Below, piece after piece: positions 8,081 through 20,269 of a stretch of 20,269 nucleotides of DNA (positions are counted from its first letter, which is position 1; each line of letters starts with the position of its first letter). Location: positions 1-20,269 of the IMG/VR virus record IMGVR_UViG_3300021964_000729. One strand, given 5' to 3'. Under the pieces are notes generated by a model. The model was given only the letters and a program-made list of their open reading frames with translations. It was not told where the DNA came from and did not search any database. A program made the position numbers and the translations under genes. This stretch comes from a virus.

Positions 8081-10534
8081 CTATATCTTGTCCATCATTC
8101 GTTTTACCACTTCGTCTAGTTTTTCTCGCCATATTTCTTTGTATCTTTCCTTATATTTATCTATTGTAGCATCCGACATTGCCCATTCTTTTACATCTTT
8201 TTCTTCTACGCTACTTTCTTTATCTAGTCTAAATTTACTAAATGAATTGATAACTCTTTTTAAATTGTCTTTAGGATTACTTGGTTTATACTCACCACCT
8301 TGATGTTTAGGGTCATAAGTAGGTTCTCCTGGAGTAATTTTCGCAGTGTAATTAGCGTAATCATGTCCTATATCGTATGCTTCTTTTTGTTCGCCCTGCG
8401 CTCTCTTTAGTTGAGCAGTCGTAGGTGCACCTTTTTCACCTTTTTTTCTCATTCGTTCACCTCTTTTTCTTTTCATGTGTATATTGTGCCACAGTCCTTT
8501 ACCTTTTTCGTCTAACTTATCAACTACTTCACCATACATTTGTTTAAACTTTTTAGTATGAATTGATGGTTTAGTCTTGGCATCTTTATCACCTGGTGCA
8601 GGTTTATAGTCGGTATCACCTTTTTTGTACTTATCTTTTTTAAAGTGATCTGCTCTTTTATCTTTGACATCTTTTGATAAACCTGAGTAATATTTTTTGG
8701 GTTGTGATCCTTTTTTCTTTTTGACATCTTTGTCTTGTGGAGTTGCATCTAAATCCTCTTGTATTGAATCTACAGCTGTGAAACCATAGTCAACATTTGT
8801 ATCATATTCTCTCACTTCTACCTCTCTATCAGCGGCTACAGGTAAACAATCCCATATCCACGCTTTGTGTAAATTGTTATTATTGTCTTCTATTACGATA
8901 TAGTTTGTACCTCGTCTTTTGACTGTACCTGATATATCTTCTTTTACATAATCTACTTTATCGTTAATGTTAAAGATCATTTCTCTAACATATAAATCTC
9001 TTACTTGGTTTTGTTCAAATCCTTCTAAACTAGCGACTGGTCTGTAAGTTCCTAAACCTGGTCCACCCATCATTGAATAACTAGCGGCAAGTTTCATACC
9101 TCGTCTTACTTGTTTCATAAGACCATCAGCATCTCTAAATGTATTTGGTAATCCTTTTTTAAATGAAATTATGTCACCTTTCTCAGCAGCAGCTCTCATC
9201 TTACTAGCACTCATACCAGTTGCGCCTTCAGCATCAGGATCACGCTCACCAGCAGATACTACTTTTATATTATCAAACTTATAGTAACCATGCCTTGACT
9301 TGACATCATTATATCTTTTTAGCAAAGTATCAAACTCTCTAATTCTATCACTACCAGCGACCATTACAATATTATTAAACTTACCATTTAATCTGACTAG
9401 TATATCTAATACATTGTTTGATGGATTGATCTCTATGTTTCTAGCATGTTGTGGAAAAATCTTTTTCATAAAAGATAATTTTTCTCTAGGTGATAGTGGA
9501 TTCTTTTTAGGGTCTTCACTTCTACTTAAATAAATTTTGTAATTATTACTTTGTGATTTAACTTTGTCCATTAGTTTTAAATGACCAATAGTTGGTGGAT
9601 TAAATCTACCAAAAGCAAATGCGATAGTATTAACTGCTTCAGTTTTTAAACTATCAATCTCATCATCTGTGACTTTACCATCTTCTAAAACTTCTTTACA
9701 TTTCTTATAGAATTTTAAGTAGTGATATTTTTCTAGGTACTTGTAAATAATATTTTTAGGTAGTTTATGTTTCTTACCAAATTGTCTTATCTCATCTGGC
9801 GTCATATCGTCATTATAAGCACTTTGTCTTTGTTTGACTACATCATCACCTATATCTACTAATACCTCTATACTGTCTTCTATCTCGTCTAATTTAGTAT
9901 TAATTTTGTCTTGTAAGTTTAATACATCATCTGTACTTAAATCTTTTAGTTCTTCGTAATCTATAATATCTCTTGCTAGTTCACCTTTGACTACATCTAT
10001 TTCTTGTACTTTTTTTTGGAAGTCTGCCTCATACTTTTCAGGATCAAAAGTATCTTCTGTAGGTTTTCTTATAAACTCATTCTCATCAATATCAAATACA
10101 CCATCTGCCATAGCGTCATTTTTTTTCTTTAACTCTGGGTCTGTGATTACATAATAGTTTACAGGGTGTTTTGTACCTGGTACGAGTTTACCATTTATAT
10201 CTCTTAAACTAGACGCTAGTTCTTTTCTAGCTGTCTCTCTATCTTCTTCTGGTACATCAAATAAAACATTGATGTCTAAATCAGCATCGTCTCTATATTT
10301 TTTTGTAAGTATAGAGCCAATCAAAGAATATTTTTTAACAGGATATTTTTCTTGGAAACTATCTATCTGATCTAATATCATATCCACAACTACTTTTTTT
10401 AGTTTTGGATTATCTGTATCAGCATCATCAAATACACCAGGCGCATATCTTTGTCTAGGTATATCAATGATACTATCTTTTAATACACTTGGTTTATCTT
10501 TTAGATATTTAAATAAGTAATCTTTAAAACTCAT
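8081..10534 (-). CDS. Pol-beta-type nucleotidyltransferase / NMNAT-like adenylyltransferase fusion with phage structural tail
   Basis: 817 aa, multidomain. Residues about 45-130 look like a pol-beta superfamily nucleotidyltransferase: LIGS (71-74) then DLDINV (85-90), the hG[GS]...Dh[D/E] pattern. Residues about 300-480 are a HIGH-type cytidylyl/adenylyltransferase: AFGRFNPPTIGH (307-318) and TGMSASKMR (439-447), equivalent to the (H/T)xGH and ISSxxxR motifs of NMNAT-like enzymes. The C-terminal third carries motifs recurrent in phage virion proteins: KKYYSGLSKDVKDKR (613-627), TDYKPAPGDKDAKTKPSIHT (641-660) and GLWHNIHMKRKRGE (680-693). Candidate protease sites lie in linkers (IQE593, LDE676; TE299-A300 just before the second enzyme domain). 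The substrate could be a nicotinamide nucleotide; this is not settled. It overlaps the kinase gene by 4 nt. The enzyme-plus-virion-module layout suggests packaging in the particle. Confidence 0.85.
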   Translation of the reverse strand: MSFKDYLFKYLKDKPSVLKDSIIDIPRQRYAPGVFDDADTDNPKLKKVVVDMILDQIDSFQEKYPVKKYSLIGSILTKKYRDDADLDINVLFDVPEEDRETARKELASSLRDINGKLVPGTKHPVNYYVITDPELKKKNDAMADGVFDIDENEFIRKPTEDTFDPEKYEADFQKKVQEIDVVKGELARDIIDYEELKDLSTDDVLNLQDKINTKLDEIEDSIEVLVDIGDDVVKQRQSAYNDDMTPDEIRQFGKKHKLPKNIIYKYLEKYHYLKFYKKCKEVLEDGKVTDDEIDSLKTEAVNTIAFAFGRFNPPTIGHLKLMDKVKSQSNNYKIYLSRSEDPKKNPLSPREKLSFMKKIFPQHARNIEINPSNNVLDILVRLNGKFNNIVMVAGSDRIREFDTLLKRYNDVKSRHGYYKFDNIKVVSAGERDPDAEGATGMSASKMRAAAEKGDIISFKKGLPNTFRDADGLMKQVRRGMKLAASYSMMGGPGLGTYRPVASLEGFEQNQVRDLYVREMIFNINDKVDYVKEDISGTVKRRGTNYIVIEDNNNNLHKAWIWDCLPVAADREVEVREYDTNVDYGFTAVDSIQEDLDATPQDKDVKKKKGSQPKKYYSGLSKDVKDKRADHFKKDKYKKGDTDYKPAPGDKDAKTKPSIHTKKFKQMYGEVVDKLDEKGKGLWHNIHMKRKRGERMRKKGEKGAPTTAQLKRAQGEQKEAYDIGHDYANYTAKITPGEPTYDPKHQGGEYKPSNPKDNLKRVINSFSKFRLDKESSVEEKDVKEWAMSDATIDKYKERYKEIWREKLDEVVKRMMDKI

Positions 10535-11214
10535 ATTCTTTTTTTAGCTTGTAATTCGTTGGCTATCCATTGTTTTGCTGTTAAATTTTGAGGTGTTGCT
10601 CTTAATTGACCTCTAATAAACTTCGCAGCTGTATTAAGTGTTTGTGTTACTAGTTCTTTTTCACTTCTATTATTATCAATAATTAACATTCTATTTGGAC
10701 TAAAAATTCTTTGAAACTGTCCTATGTTTCTTTGTACACCATTCCAACTATTAGTTACAATATATTCTGGTATTGATCTAGGTCTATTTTGATTTCTTTC
10801 TAGCGCCACTTCTAAACTTGTATTAACAAAGATCATATAACTATCATAACCTATTTGATCTAACATTCTTTTTTGTGTGTTAATTACATTTAAATCTCTA
10901 CCAGTTGCGTCTATGACTAAACCTAATCTACCTTGAACATATGTGTCTAATGCAGTCGCTGTTGTCATCTTTGCTTTTGCTCTTACTATGTTTCTAAAGT
11001 ATTCTTCTTCATCTGGCATCTTTAAAGATAGACCAGCTTTTTTTAAACCTCTTTCAAATGCTGCGTCAGAGTTTACTAACTTTAAACCAGTGCCACCAAA
11101 GGCTGATCTAGTTACAAATGTTTTACCACTACCAGGTCCACCAGCCAAGAAAAAGGCTTTGAATATACCTGGGTCGTAAACACCCTCTCGCAATATTTGA
11201 TTTAGTTTTTTCAT
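10531..11214 (-). CDS. Zeta-toxin-like P-loop kinase with capsid-targeting-like leader
   Basis: 227 aa. Walker A is GGPGSGKT (25-32) after a hydrophobic strand; an acidic region VNSDAAFERGLKKAG (47-61), the strand LVIDATGR (98-105) as Walker B-like, and an Arg-containing lid (ALERNQNRPRSIPE) complete a zeta-toxin/polynucleotide-kinase-like fold. The substrate is not evident: sugar nucleotides, nucleic-acid ends or a small molecule are possible. The N-terminus MKKLNQILRE-G has L8-x-E10|G11, the same geometry as the T4 internal-protein leader, so it may be packaged, cut after residue 10 and injected. It is coupled to both neighbours by 1-nt and 4-nt overlaps. Confidence 0.85.
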   Translation of the reverse strand: MKKLNQILREGVYDPGIFKAFFLAGGPGSGKTFVTRSAFGGTGLKLVNSDAAFERGLKKAGLSLKMPDEEEYFRNIVRAKAKMTTATALDTYVQGRLGLVIDATGRDLNVINTQKRMLDQIGYDSYMIFVNTSLEVALERNQNRPRSIPEYIVTNSWNGVQRNIGQFQRIFSPNRMLIIDNNRSEKELVTQTLNTAAKFIRGQLRATPQNLTAKQWIANELQAKKRI

Positions 11215-17251: not shown

Positions 17252-17938
17252 TCATTTTTTTTTACTCAACTTATATCCACCAGACCATTTAGTTTGTATT
17301 ATCATTCTGACTTTGCTTTCCCATTTAGATGTTTCTAAATTTTTTTCTTTTATTATATGTGACCATTTTGTTCTCTTAAAAGGAATTAACATACATAATG
17401 GTAATCCTCTAGGTAATCTAAATTTACCTGTCTTTTTAAAACTTATCTGTGGGTGTAAGTGATGATAATAGTCTGTGTTAATCGTACCAGGCATAACATC
17501 AAACACATCACTAAATTCATAGTATAAAGGCAATTGTAACATACTATAACCTTTTTTTGTTTTACAACACCATGGTGACGTGGGTTTTAAAATAAATTTA
17601 TATTGATCTGTAGGTAGATGATCCAAATACTGATCTCTAAGATGATACTCTACGTTAAAATTACTAGGATCAGGAACCTTTATTATTGGTTCTAAATTTT
17701 TATCTTCTGGTATCTCAACATCTATATCTGTCCACAAATAATGTATGTATCCTAAATTAAAATAATCAATTACACCAGGACACTTTTTAATTGTGCCTTC
17801 TAATTTTAGATTTTTAAACCATGGTGGTATTCTTTGAATACTTTTAGTTATAGGATTTAAATCTTCTAATCCATCTTTTTCACACCAAAAAATTACATCT
17901 GGTTTATTATTAAATAATTTATTCCAAATCTTCATCAT
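17252..17938 (-). CDS. Conserved marine phage protein, function unknown
   Basis: 228 aa from the ATG at 17938 (a second ATG follows at 17935); the frame is open to 17983 through a TTG with no ribosome-binding site, so I prefer the ATG, which gives a 20-nt overlap with the upstream gene. Motifs include IPPWFKNLKLEGTIKKCPG (37-55), IDYFNLGYIHYLWTDIDVEI (57-76) and PWCCKTKKGYSMLQLPLYY (122-140). The PWFKN...KKCPGxxDYFxxGYI.xLWxDIxxxI pattern is a family common in T4-like cyanophages and pelagiphages, to my memory without known function. It has many aromatic residues and Cys but no clear enzyme motif. It sits just before the uvsX promoter. Confidence 0.7.
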   Translation of the reverse strand: MMKIWNKLFNNKPDVIFWCEKDGLEDLNPITKSIQRIPPWFKNLKLEGTIKKCPGVIDYFNLGYIHYLWTDIDVEIPEDKNLEPIIKVPDPSNFNVEYHLRDQYLDHLPTDQYKFILKPTSPWCCKTKKGYSMLQLPLYYEFSDVFDVMPGTINTDYYHHLHPQISFKKTGKFRLPRGLPLCMLIPFKRTKWSHIIKEKNLETSKWESKVRMIIQTKWSGGYKLSKKK

Positions 17939-18221
17939 ACGGTAATAAGTAAGTTGGTAAGTTTGCCTCACCTTCCCACTCAAATCTTAATTTTGGATCT
18001 GCTGGTACATATCCTGGTTTAGGGTTTTCATAGTGACTAGGGTCAACCCTTGTCCACAATAATTTTTTCATTTCATCTATATGTACCATACCAAAATCAT
18101 TGTACACTCTACCCTTAAACTTCTCGGCCATAAAGTGTACCATTTCTTTATTGTACTCTATCTTTCTTTGATAATCCCAATACTCTTTTAATTCTTTGTA
18201 TGATTGTTTAGAAATAGCCAT
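17919..18221 (-). CDS. 100-aa unassigned phage protein
   Basis: 100 aa, mixed charge with many aromatics: an N-terminal helix (KQSYKELKEYWDYQRKIEYN), a central VYNDFGMVHIDEMKKLLW (39-56), then a Pro-rich part (PSHYENPKPGYVPADP). I recognise no family. The ATG lies 8 nt after the stop of the CmoA-like gene but without a clear Shine-Dalgarno, so its translation may depend on the preceding gene. It overlaps the next gene by 20 nt. Being in the same transcript as the modification genes does not by itself show a shared function. Confidence 0.6.
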   Translation of the reverse strand: MAISKQSYKELKEYWDYQRKIEYNKEMVHFMAEKFKGRVYNDFGMVHIDEMKKLLWTRVDPSHYENPKPGYVPADPKLRFEWEGEANLPTYLLPYDEDLE

Positions 18222-18229
18222 ATGACTAT

Positions 18230-18907
18230 TTATTTTTTTAAAGCAATCACACCAACGAAATTAAAATTTTGCCAAAAAGTATGTATCTCAAAACCAGCAT
18301 CCTGTACCATTTTATACAACTCTGTTTTTGTATTAGGCTTCATCATATGTCGCAGCTGTACTTCTTTGTCAAGTATTTCTTTATCAGAAAAATGTTGTCT
18401 TTTATAATCGTAAAACATAAAGGTCATCATATCTTGTACCCTTGGATTACAACTAAAAGTTTTTTCTGAAAAGATAAACGCACCACCAGTATTAAGGCCA
18501 TTGTAAATTTTATTAATTACTTCTTGTCTATCTTTTGGTGACATAAATTGTAAAGTAAATATAGAAGTGACCAAAGAACAGTTTTGAAAATCAAACTCTC
18601 TTACATCACCTCTAAAGTAATTTAATTGATGATATTTTTCCTCGTCATGCGGGTAATCGCCAAAAAAATCTTCTTCTATTTCTATGCCAGTATATTGTGC
18701 GTGAGGTATATTCTTTTGATTTTGTTCTATCATACCTTTTAATAGTTTACCTGAAGAACAACCCATATCAACAACTTGCGTATAATCTTCTACGAAATAT
18801 TTTGATAGAGAAAGTATATCACCCCATAACTGACTATAACCACGAACAGATTTGTCTATGTGATTATCAAAGCCTTCTTTACTTGTAGCAAAAGTAAATT
18901 TAGTCAT
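18230..18907 (-). CDS. CmoA-like SAM enzyme, candidate carboxy-SAM synthase
   Basis: 225 aa, class I SAM fold, near E. coli CmoA (247 aa) in length. Shared segments: RGYSQLW (22-28; CmoA PGYS with Tyr39), VVDMGCSSGKLL (45-56) as SAM motif I, FTLQFMSPKDRQEVINKIYNGL and GGAFIFSEK (117-149), and YDYKR (166-170). CmoA turns SAM and prephenate into carboxy-SAM, normally for tRNA cmo5U with CmoB; no CmoB is seen here. Instead the gene overlaps a C5 DNA methyltransferase by 8 nt, behind an excellent AAGGAG, so the product may feed that enzyme. Oddities: by eye, CmoA Arg199 aligns with E182 (an Arg, R186, is one helical turn on) and CmoA Asn132 with I116. Carboxy-SAM, another acidic analogue, or ordinary SAM chemistry are all open. 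Homology to CmoA is strong; activity is inference. Confidence 0.85.
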   Translation of the reverse strand: MTKFTFATSKEGFDNHIDKSVRGYSQLWGDILSLSKYFVEDYTQVVDMGCSSGKLLKGMIEQNQKNIPHAQYTGIEIEEDFFGDYPHDEEKYHQLNYFRGDVREFDFQNCSLVTSIFTLQFMSPKDRQEVINKIYNGLNTGGAFIFSEKTFSCNPRVQDMMTFMFYDYKRQHFSDKEILDKEVQLRHMMKPNTKTELYKMVQDAGFEIHTFWQNFNFVGVIALKK

Positions 18908-20063
18908 TATTTAACTCCTTGTATGGTTTTAATACTTTGTTGTAAACACTTTCAGCAAGTGCTTTCATCATCAACGGTGGTACCATACGACCTATTCGTT
19001 CTGATTGTTGTTTATGTTTACCTGTTAATTTAAAGTCTTCAGGTAATGACATAATTCTTTTTAATTCTTTTATAGTAAACTTTCTATCTTCTATTGGATG
19101 GCAAGTACCAGCAACACCAGCAAGATTACCCATCGCAGTAATTGTTGGACAAGGTTTTCTTAAACTTGATCTTTTTAAATTAAAGTGATGACCTTTATCA
19201 TGGTAATCCATACCAGTCAATACTTTGTCAGGATCCTTTGGCATCTTCATTAAAGTTTTACCTACAGCTTTTTCTGGACTAATCTTATCAAACAAATAAT
19301 CTAGTTCTTCTTTATCTTCATTTATAATATCACTAATCGCTTCACCAAGTGTAGTTTGTACATCATTTTTTTCAGGATATAATTGATACATTGTCATAAA
19401 ATTTAAACCTATCGCATCTGCCACATCTTCTCTTACACCTATAAAGAAACATCTTTTACGAGATTGTGGTACACCAAAATAACTTGCGTTTAATACGTCA
19501 GCGACAACTAGATAACCTATTTCTTCAAATGTATTTTGTATCTTATGAAAATACTCTTTGGCTTCACCCATAGTCAAACCTTCAACATTTTCACCAATGA
19601 TTACTTTTGGTTTTATATCTTTTGCCACTCTTAAAAATTCAAAAAATAAATCTTCTACATTACTCACACCTTTAATATCACTATACTGTTTTGTTTTATT
19701 AAACGCATCTGCGTGTGTATTACCACCACCATGCGATATAGAACCAGCCATACTAAATGCTGAACAAGGTGGACTACCATCTAATATATCTAACTCACTC
19801 ACTTTTACACCAGCTTGTTCCATAAGATATGTGCCTGTCAATTTTTTTATATCACCTGGCACTATTGTAGTGTTAGGATAATTTTCTCTGTAAGTATTTT
19901 GTGCTTCTTCAACAAACTCATTGATCGCTAGTATCTTACCACCAGCCAATCTATAACCTGTTGATGAGCCACCACCACCAGCGAAAGTTGATAGTACATT
20001 AAATAGTGCTTTTTTTTCACTATCTAAAGTATCTTGTAATGTATATCTTTTATAATTGTTCAT
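18900..20063 (-). CDS. Cytosine-C5 DNA methyltransferase with motif X Asn-to-Arg change
   Basis: 387 aa. Motif I VLSTFAGGGGSSTGYRLAGG (23-42), motif IV DGSPPCSAFS (95-104) with catalytic C100, motif VI GENVEGL (157-163) with E158, motif VIII SYFGVPQSRKRCFFIGVR (194-211), a short target-recognition region (about 215-300), then RKPCPTIT (302-309) and motif X SERIGRMVPPLMMKALAES (354-372). All catalytic residues are intact, so it should be active. The near-invariant Asn of IGNxVPP, which lies near the methyl donor, is Arg359; in engineered M.MpeI the same change gives use of carboxy-SAM and 5-carboxymethylcytosine. The next gene is CmoA-like. A strong sigma70-type promoter (20105-20133) precedes it. 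The target site cannot be read from sequence; no restriction partner is visible. Confidence 0.95.
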   Translation of the reverse strand: MNNYKRYTLQDTLDSEKKALFNVLSTFAGGGGSSTGYRLAGGKILAINEFVEEAQNTYRENYPNTTIVPGDIKKLTGTYLMEQAGVKVSELDILDGSPPCSAFSMAGSISHGGGNTHADAFNKTKQYSDIKGVSNVEDLFFEFLRVAKDIKPKVIIGENVEGLTMGEAKEYFHKIQNTFEEIGYLVVADVLNASYFGVPQSRKRCFFIGVREDVADAIGLNFMTMYQLYPEKNDVQTTLGEAISDIINEDKEELDYLFDKISPEKAVGKTLMKMPKDPDKVLTGMDYHDKGHHFNLKRSSLRKPCPTITAMGNLAGVAGTCHPIEDRKFTIKELKRIMSLPEDFKLTGKHKQQSERIGRMVPPLMMKALAESVYNKVLKPYKELNND

Positions 20064-20145
20064 TGTTCCATTTAATTAATAACCATACGACAAAACCGAA
20101 TATCATTATAACATAAAACAGCGATAGAGTCAAGTCTATAATCAT
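20050..20145 (-). CDS. 31-aa single-helix membrane peptide (probable)
   Basis: The ORF starts in an ATGA overlap with the stop of the MT-A70 gene and ends 14 nt inside the C5 methyltransferase gene. The 31 residues begin MIIDLTLSLFYVIMIFGFVV and end LLIKWNNEQL: one hydrophobic segment of about 20 residues and a short basic/polar tail. It looks like a small inner-membrane peptide, but a promoter for the following gene lies within it, so part of its sequence is constrained for another reason. Overlap at both ends supports translation; no homology is known to me. Confidence 0.45.
   Translation of the reverse strand: MIIDLTLSLFYVIMIFGFVVWLLIKWNNEQL
20105..20133 (-). promoter_or_regulatory. Sigma70-type promoter of the C5-methyltransferase/CmoA-like unit
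   Basis: TTGACT (20128-20133), 17-nt spacer, TATAAT (20105-20110) on the minus strand: 11 of 12 consensus bases. The predicted start is near 20098, giving about 35 nt of leader before the ATG at 20063. A dyad ATAGA-N6-TCTAT covers the -35 box and could bind a regulator. It lies inside the small membrane-peptide ORF and would allow expression of the modification pair independent of the MT-A70 gene upstream. Confidence 0.8.
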
Positions 20146-20269
20146 ACTTCGTTTCCCCAACTTTGCCACCCATCTCGTTTTCTACGAGCAAAGAGTTCTA
20201 TATAAGGTCCACTTAACATTTTTTCTATATGTTCATAAACAATATCTGGTTTTCTACTATGTTCTTGTC
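20142..20269 (-). CDS. Partial CDS (C-terminus), MT-A70 family N6-adenine methyltransferase
   Basis: The last 41 codons of a gene that begins beyond the right edge. The visible end contains HSRKPDIVYEHIEKM, then GPYIELFARRKRDGWQSWGN and EV-stop. This HSxKP...xELFARRxxxGWxxWGNEV ending is characteristic of MT-A70 type methyltransferases (METTL3-related; phage and bacterial members methylate adenine in DNA). The catalytic DPPW-type motif would lie upstream, outside the window, so activity cannot be judged. Together with the following C5 methyltransferase it marks a DNA-modification cluster. Confidence 0.85.
   Translation of the reverse strand, partial: QEHSRKPDIVYEHIEKMLSGPYIELFARRKRDGWQSWGNEV

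Follow-up and report, generated by a model that had tools for sequence, protein, structure and literature searches.

A putative phage carboxy-SAM synthase with a probably displaced carboxylate-binding arginine, paired with a CmoX-type DNA cytosine carboxymethyltransferase homologue in a fragment of a seemingly T4-like virus

The analyzed window is the entire virus record IMGVR_UViG_3300021964_000729 (20,269 bases), a genome fragment of ~20 kb. The virus is marine and, judging by the encoded proteins, looks T4-like; UvsX-like and DnaB-like helicase proteins are encoded near the cmoA gene, and the UvsX of the window shows 70% identity to the UvsX of phage Melnitz and of cyanophages. The locus contains the following features:

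18900..20063, minus strand: cmoX, encoding a homologue of DNA cytosine-C5 carboxymethyltransferase (387 aa) with an SPPC motif, the nucleophile C100, and R359 corresponding to R350 of SpCmoX, the CmoX of Synechococcus phage S-B43
18915..18920, minus strand: Shine-Dalgarno sequence AAGGAG of cmoA, located within the 3' end of cmoX, 7 nt before the ATG
18900..18907, minus strand: 8-nt overlap between the stop end of cmoX and the start of cmoA
18230..18907, minus strand: cmoA, encoding a homologue of phage carboxy-SAM synthase (225 aa, ATG at 18907), in which E182 and R186 correspond to positions 199 and 203 of E. coli CmoA
17919..18221, minus strand: 100-aa ORF with no assigned function, directly after cmoA

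The 8-nt overlap with the C5 methyltransferase gene and the strong ribosome-binding site, both pointed out in the initial annotation, are real. The 100-aa ORF is retained in most close relatives and is a candidate only for membership in the pathway. Between this ORF and uvsX lies a 243-aa ORF (17252-17983, PHROG 7084), for which a counterpart was found in only one of the related loci compared, L071 (25% identity). In L071 (4692-6578), CmoA is present, cmoX is absent from the stretch examined, and the distant homologue of the 243-aa ORF is close by. Elsewhere in the window, an 817-aa protein (8081-10534) is nucleotidyltransferase-like at its N-terminus and also contains a cytidylyltransferase-like domain, and the gene immediately upstream of it (10531-11214) encodes a 227-aa P-loop kinase of the zeta-toxin/AAA_33-like type. 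An ORF cut by the window edge (20142-20269) represents, by eye, the C-terminal part of an MT-A70-type adenine methyltransferase; a complete gene of this type is located directly upstream of cmoX in the related locus L022 (8230-8766).

Analysis of the 225-aa protein bore out the CmoA homology proposed initially. The TIGR00740 model matches it with E=6e-34, and its score of 117.8 bits lies below the NCBIfam equivalog cut-off of 193 bits, which is that of the bacterial equivalog model. Phmmer comparison with CmoA structures gave E-values of 8e-30 (4iwn), 7e-29 (4gek), and 1e-23 (1im8). An AlphaFold model constructed from 39 sequences (window and IMG/VR) had a mean pLDDT of 92.6, and the nearest solved folds were the CmoA proteins of E. 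coli and H. influenzae (4gek, 4iwn, 1im8; Z 28), with an rmsd of 2.3-2.4 A across 219-220 residues. Thus, the best PDB match is CmoA both by sequence and by fold. In the scan of bacterial genomes, only two distant CmoA-like genes were found (33% and 30% identity). A search of seven related records, two of them complete genomes, revealed no match to the CmoB family, in agreement with the absence of CmoB noted earlier for the window, itself a fragment.

The protein also draws generic methyltransferase Pfam matches, and its PHROG is annotated as tRNA methyltransferase, as would be the case if it were a plain SAM-dependent methyltransferase acting, for example, on tRNA or DNA. This explanation appears extremely improbable, since the closest family, the fold, and the phylogeny all point to CmoA and the gene is linked almost constantly to a CmoX of the Arg350 type.

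The residues expected to bind the ligand differ from those of the bacterial enzyme. In E. coli CmoA, Arg199 forms a 2.7 A salt bridge to the carboxylate of carboxy-SAM (Cx-SAM) and has been proposed as a CmoA marker, while Asn132 binds the methionine part (PMC3663124). In the window protein, the marker arginine is absent: an ungapped alignment block places E182 at the position of R199 and R186 at that of E203 (K-R-x-x-L-E in E. coli, K-E-x-x-L-R in the window), so that the by-eye reading of the initial annotation, including the replacement of N132 by Ile and the nearby R186, was correct. Two further changes are D89 to Glu and N90 to Ile. One helical turn from the 199 position, R186 may serve as the new carboxylate ligand, although its placement in the AlphaFold model, just beyond the end of a predicted helix (174-185), counts against this.

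Importantly, a biochemically characterized system with the same changes has been published. Synechococcus phage S-B43 encodes CmoA, CmoX, and CmoY, by which 5-carboxymethylcytosine (5cxmC) is formed and subsequently converted to the glycine amide (Yang et al. 2025, PMC12783734). The product of S-B43 CmoA (SpCmoA) is Cx-SAM (m/z 443), and its kcat of 2.33/s is 10-fold higher than that of E. coli CmoA, 0.23/s (PMC12783734). Residue 199 goes unmentioned in the main text of that paper (PMC12783734); according to our alignment, SpCmoA contains E199, R203, and Leu132, as well as E89 as in the window, and its identity to the window protein is 53-56%. Since this proven and fast Cx-SAM synthase carries the same E199/R203 pair, the altered pocket is compatible with Cx-SAM synthesis, and Arg199 as a marker does not define the function. 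The earlier suggestion that R186 replaces the lost arginine fits this pair.

The initial annotation had left three options, of which the rearranged pocket stands, the product most likely still being Cx-SAM. The other two, a different SAM analogue and a plain methyltransferase, were rejected by the comparison with SpCmoA. The synthesis of another analogue, with another acid or decarboxylation partner, was suggested by the replacement of R199 and N132, together with the Glu at D89 and the Ile at N90; it is nevertheless very unlikely, because SpCmoA yields Cx-SAM in spite of sharing E199/R203 and E89 and because the CmoX of the window retains every Cx-SAM contact tested. In all likelihood, the window protein is a phage CmoA that would convert SAM and prephenate to Cx-SAM, and the comparison suggests that in its clade the carboxylate-binding Arg has moved from 199 to 203, with Glu in the vacated place.

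SpCmoX carboxymethylates DNA cytosine with GC specificity, using only Cx-SAM as a donor, and DNA modified by it resists HhaI, which supports a role in protection from restriction (PMC12783734). The CmoX of the window shows 58% identity to SpCmoX (8YF3) over 96% of its length (E=9e-141), and all six ligand-binding and catalytic residues compared (F25, E47, F48, D69, C98, and R350 of SpCmoX) are kept as F27, E49, F50, D71, C100, and R359. It thereby carries both features used in the published CmoX search, namely, the SPPC motif (S97-C100) and Arg350 (R359). R359, singled out in the initial annotation as a sign of an acidic product, indeed aligns with the carboxylate-binding R350; Arg occupies this position in every CmoX linked to a CmoA with E199/R203 (107/107) or with R199/E203 (14/14), which supports that reading. 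The coupling of CmoA to a DNA methyltransferase was likewise confirmed, but it had been presented as unexplained, whereas the system is already published (PMC12783734). The window shows no depletion of the GC dinucleotide (observed/expected 1.07) and hence no footprint of the putative target site.

A CmoX-like methyltransferase with 42% identity to that of the window is encoded by the Methylophilales Melnitz phages (L004, 4010-5227); Leu stands where Arg350 would be, and these phages have no CmoA. The Melnitz enzyme is probably not a carboxymethyltransferase, or is one with another donor.

The two residues were tabulated across 205 distinct homologues of CmoA, almost all of which came from IMG/VR and from phage genomes. 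Glu199/Arg203 was found in 113 of them and Arg199/Glu203 in 78, the rest being mixed (SR, QR, KE, QK, and others); neither RR nor EE occurred in the set. Because Arg199 can be lost while Cx-SAM is still made, an annotation rule that requires Arg199 would overlook more than half of the distinct phage CmoAs in this set. In a tree of 73 representatives, constructed with columns 199 and 203 left out, the two groups are each set apart by one branch (SH-aLRT 99), and the Glu199/Arg203 group holds the CmoAs of the window, S-B43, and Synechococcus phage S-CRM01. The swap is thus essentially one evolutionary event, a covariation without independent replication, and for this reason covariation alone is weak proof of the carboxylate contact. 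Whatever this weakness, the function can be carried over directly from SpCmoA.

Staphylococcus phage CmoAs, with Ser or Gln at 199 and Arg at 203, branch just outside the Glu199/Arg203 group and are plausible intermediates of the swap; a protein search seeded with one of them found nothing further. In two of these phages (L085, 4950-7468; L086, 4947-6646), CmoA lies beside a C5 methyltransferase with an SPC motif and with Gly instead of Arg at the motif-X position, implying another mode of Cx-SAM recognition or another partner. Staphylococcus phage PhiSepi-HH3 contains no PF00733 ligase.

Locus layout was compared in 74 contigs of close relatives, whose CmoA is at least 73% identical to that of the window. 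In 71 of them cmoX directly overlaps cmoA, by the same 8 nt in 62 and by either 1 or 4 nt in another nine; of the remaining three, one has a gap between the genes, and two lack cmoX in the stretch examined. A tblastn search found no CmoY-like gene in any of the 74 contigs within the stretches examined. PF00733 (Asn_synthase) was absent from the window and from eight contigs of its lineage (20-41 kb), and no ligase of the Asn-synthetase type was found anywhere in the complete S-CRM01 genome. In contrast, all six of the next contigs (CmoA 69-71% identical) have a ligase between cmoX and cmoA, the place that CmoY occupies in sister lineages. The occurrence of loci without a ligase is in itself no novelty, as the published survey counted fewer ligases (2,251) than CmoX proteins (5,615) (PMC12783734). 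In locus L084 (8311-10004), two tandem Asn-synthetase-like ligase ORFs lie between cmoX and cmoA, and the record of L139 also has two PF00733 matches. CmoY links the carboxymethyl group to glycine (PMC12783734); since the added glycine is itself a carboxylate, a second tandem ligase could act sequentially.

Conceivably, but on balance doubtfully, the 5cxmC made by CmoA and CmoX is tailored by an unlinked ligase elsewhere in the genome, for example a RimK-like one, which would extend the main reading rather than exclude it. The window is only a fragment, sister lineages have CmoY between cmoX and cmoA, and most relatives with enough upstream flank contain a RimK-like ATP-grasp ORF 5-7 kb upstream of cmoX and upstream of gp43. 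However, such genes are also present in T4-like phages without a CmoA match (Melnitz, Mosig, S-RIM8, and S-CAM8), which weakens the RimK-like protein as a dedicated tailoring ligase and leaves it unconvincing as a tailoring enzyme; moreover, the complete S-CRM01 genome has CmoA and CmoX and neither an Asn-synthetase-type ligase nor this RimK-like gene.

Taken together, CmoA of the window would form Cx-SAM, and CmoX, by analogy with its homologue, would transfer the carboxymethyl group to DNA cytosine, presumably at GC sites. The absence of a linked ligase suggests, with moderate confidence, that 5cxmC without the glycine amide may be the final mark in the window lineage; by analogy with SpCmoX, its purpose would be protection from restriction. 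That marine T4-like phages contain a widespread branch of CmoX systems lacking a ligase, with naked, negatively charged 5cxmC as the final base and the CmoA clamp swapped by one turn (R199/E203 to E199/R203), is proposed tentatively, at slightly less than an even chance. An apparent contradiction is settled: a CmoA without the textbook Arg199 marker can still synthesize Cx-SAM. In addition, the results point to a common lineage whose DNA may carry 5cxmC as its final base; such a lineage would test whether protection needs nothing beyond the carboxymethyl group or there is a further tailoring enzyme.

Compared with bacterial CmoA of the tRNA cmo5U pathway (E. coli; H. influenzae YecO), the window protein shares the fold and most SAM-binding residues but has the Glu/Arg pair in place of R199/E203 and Ile in place of N132, and its partner is a DNA carboxymethyltransferase homologue instead of CmoB. 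The engineered carboxymethyltransferase M.MpeI N374K (as cited in PMC12783734) likewise has a basic residue for the motif-X Asn of C5 methyltransferases; it acts at CG sites, whereas the Arg of the window CmoX is natural and, by homology alone, its sites are likely GC. S-CRM01 (NC_015569) resembles the window in its overlapping CmoA and CmoX genes, the lack of a ligase, and the same Glu/Arg pair, and differs in the order cmoA-cmoX and in being a complete genome. The S-B43 system corresponds in the E199/R203 pair of CmoA, in the CmoX features (SPPC motif, Arg350, and every Cx-SAM contact named), and in that the genes adjoin, point the same way, and belong to a marine phage of the T4-like type; the window differs from it in the order cmoX-cmoA with the 8-nt overlap, in having no CmoY between or near these genes, and in a protein identity of ~55-58%. 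The pair in the window is thus a further member of the CmoA-CmoX system published in 2025, distinguished by the one-turn Arg swap and by its ligase-free lineage.
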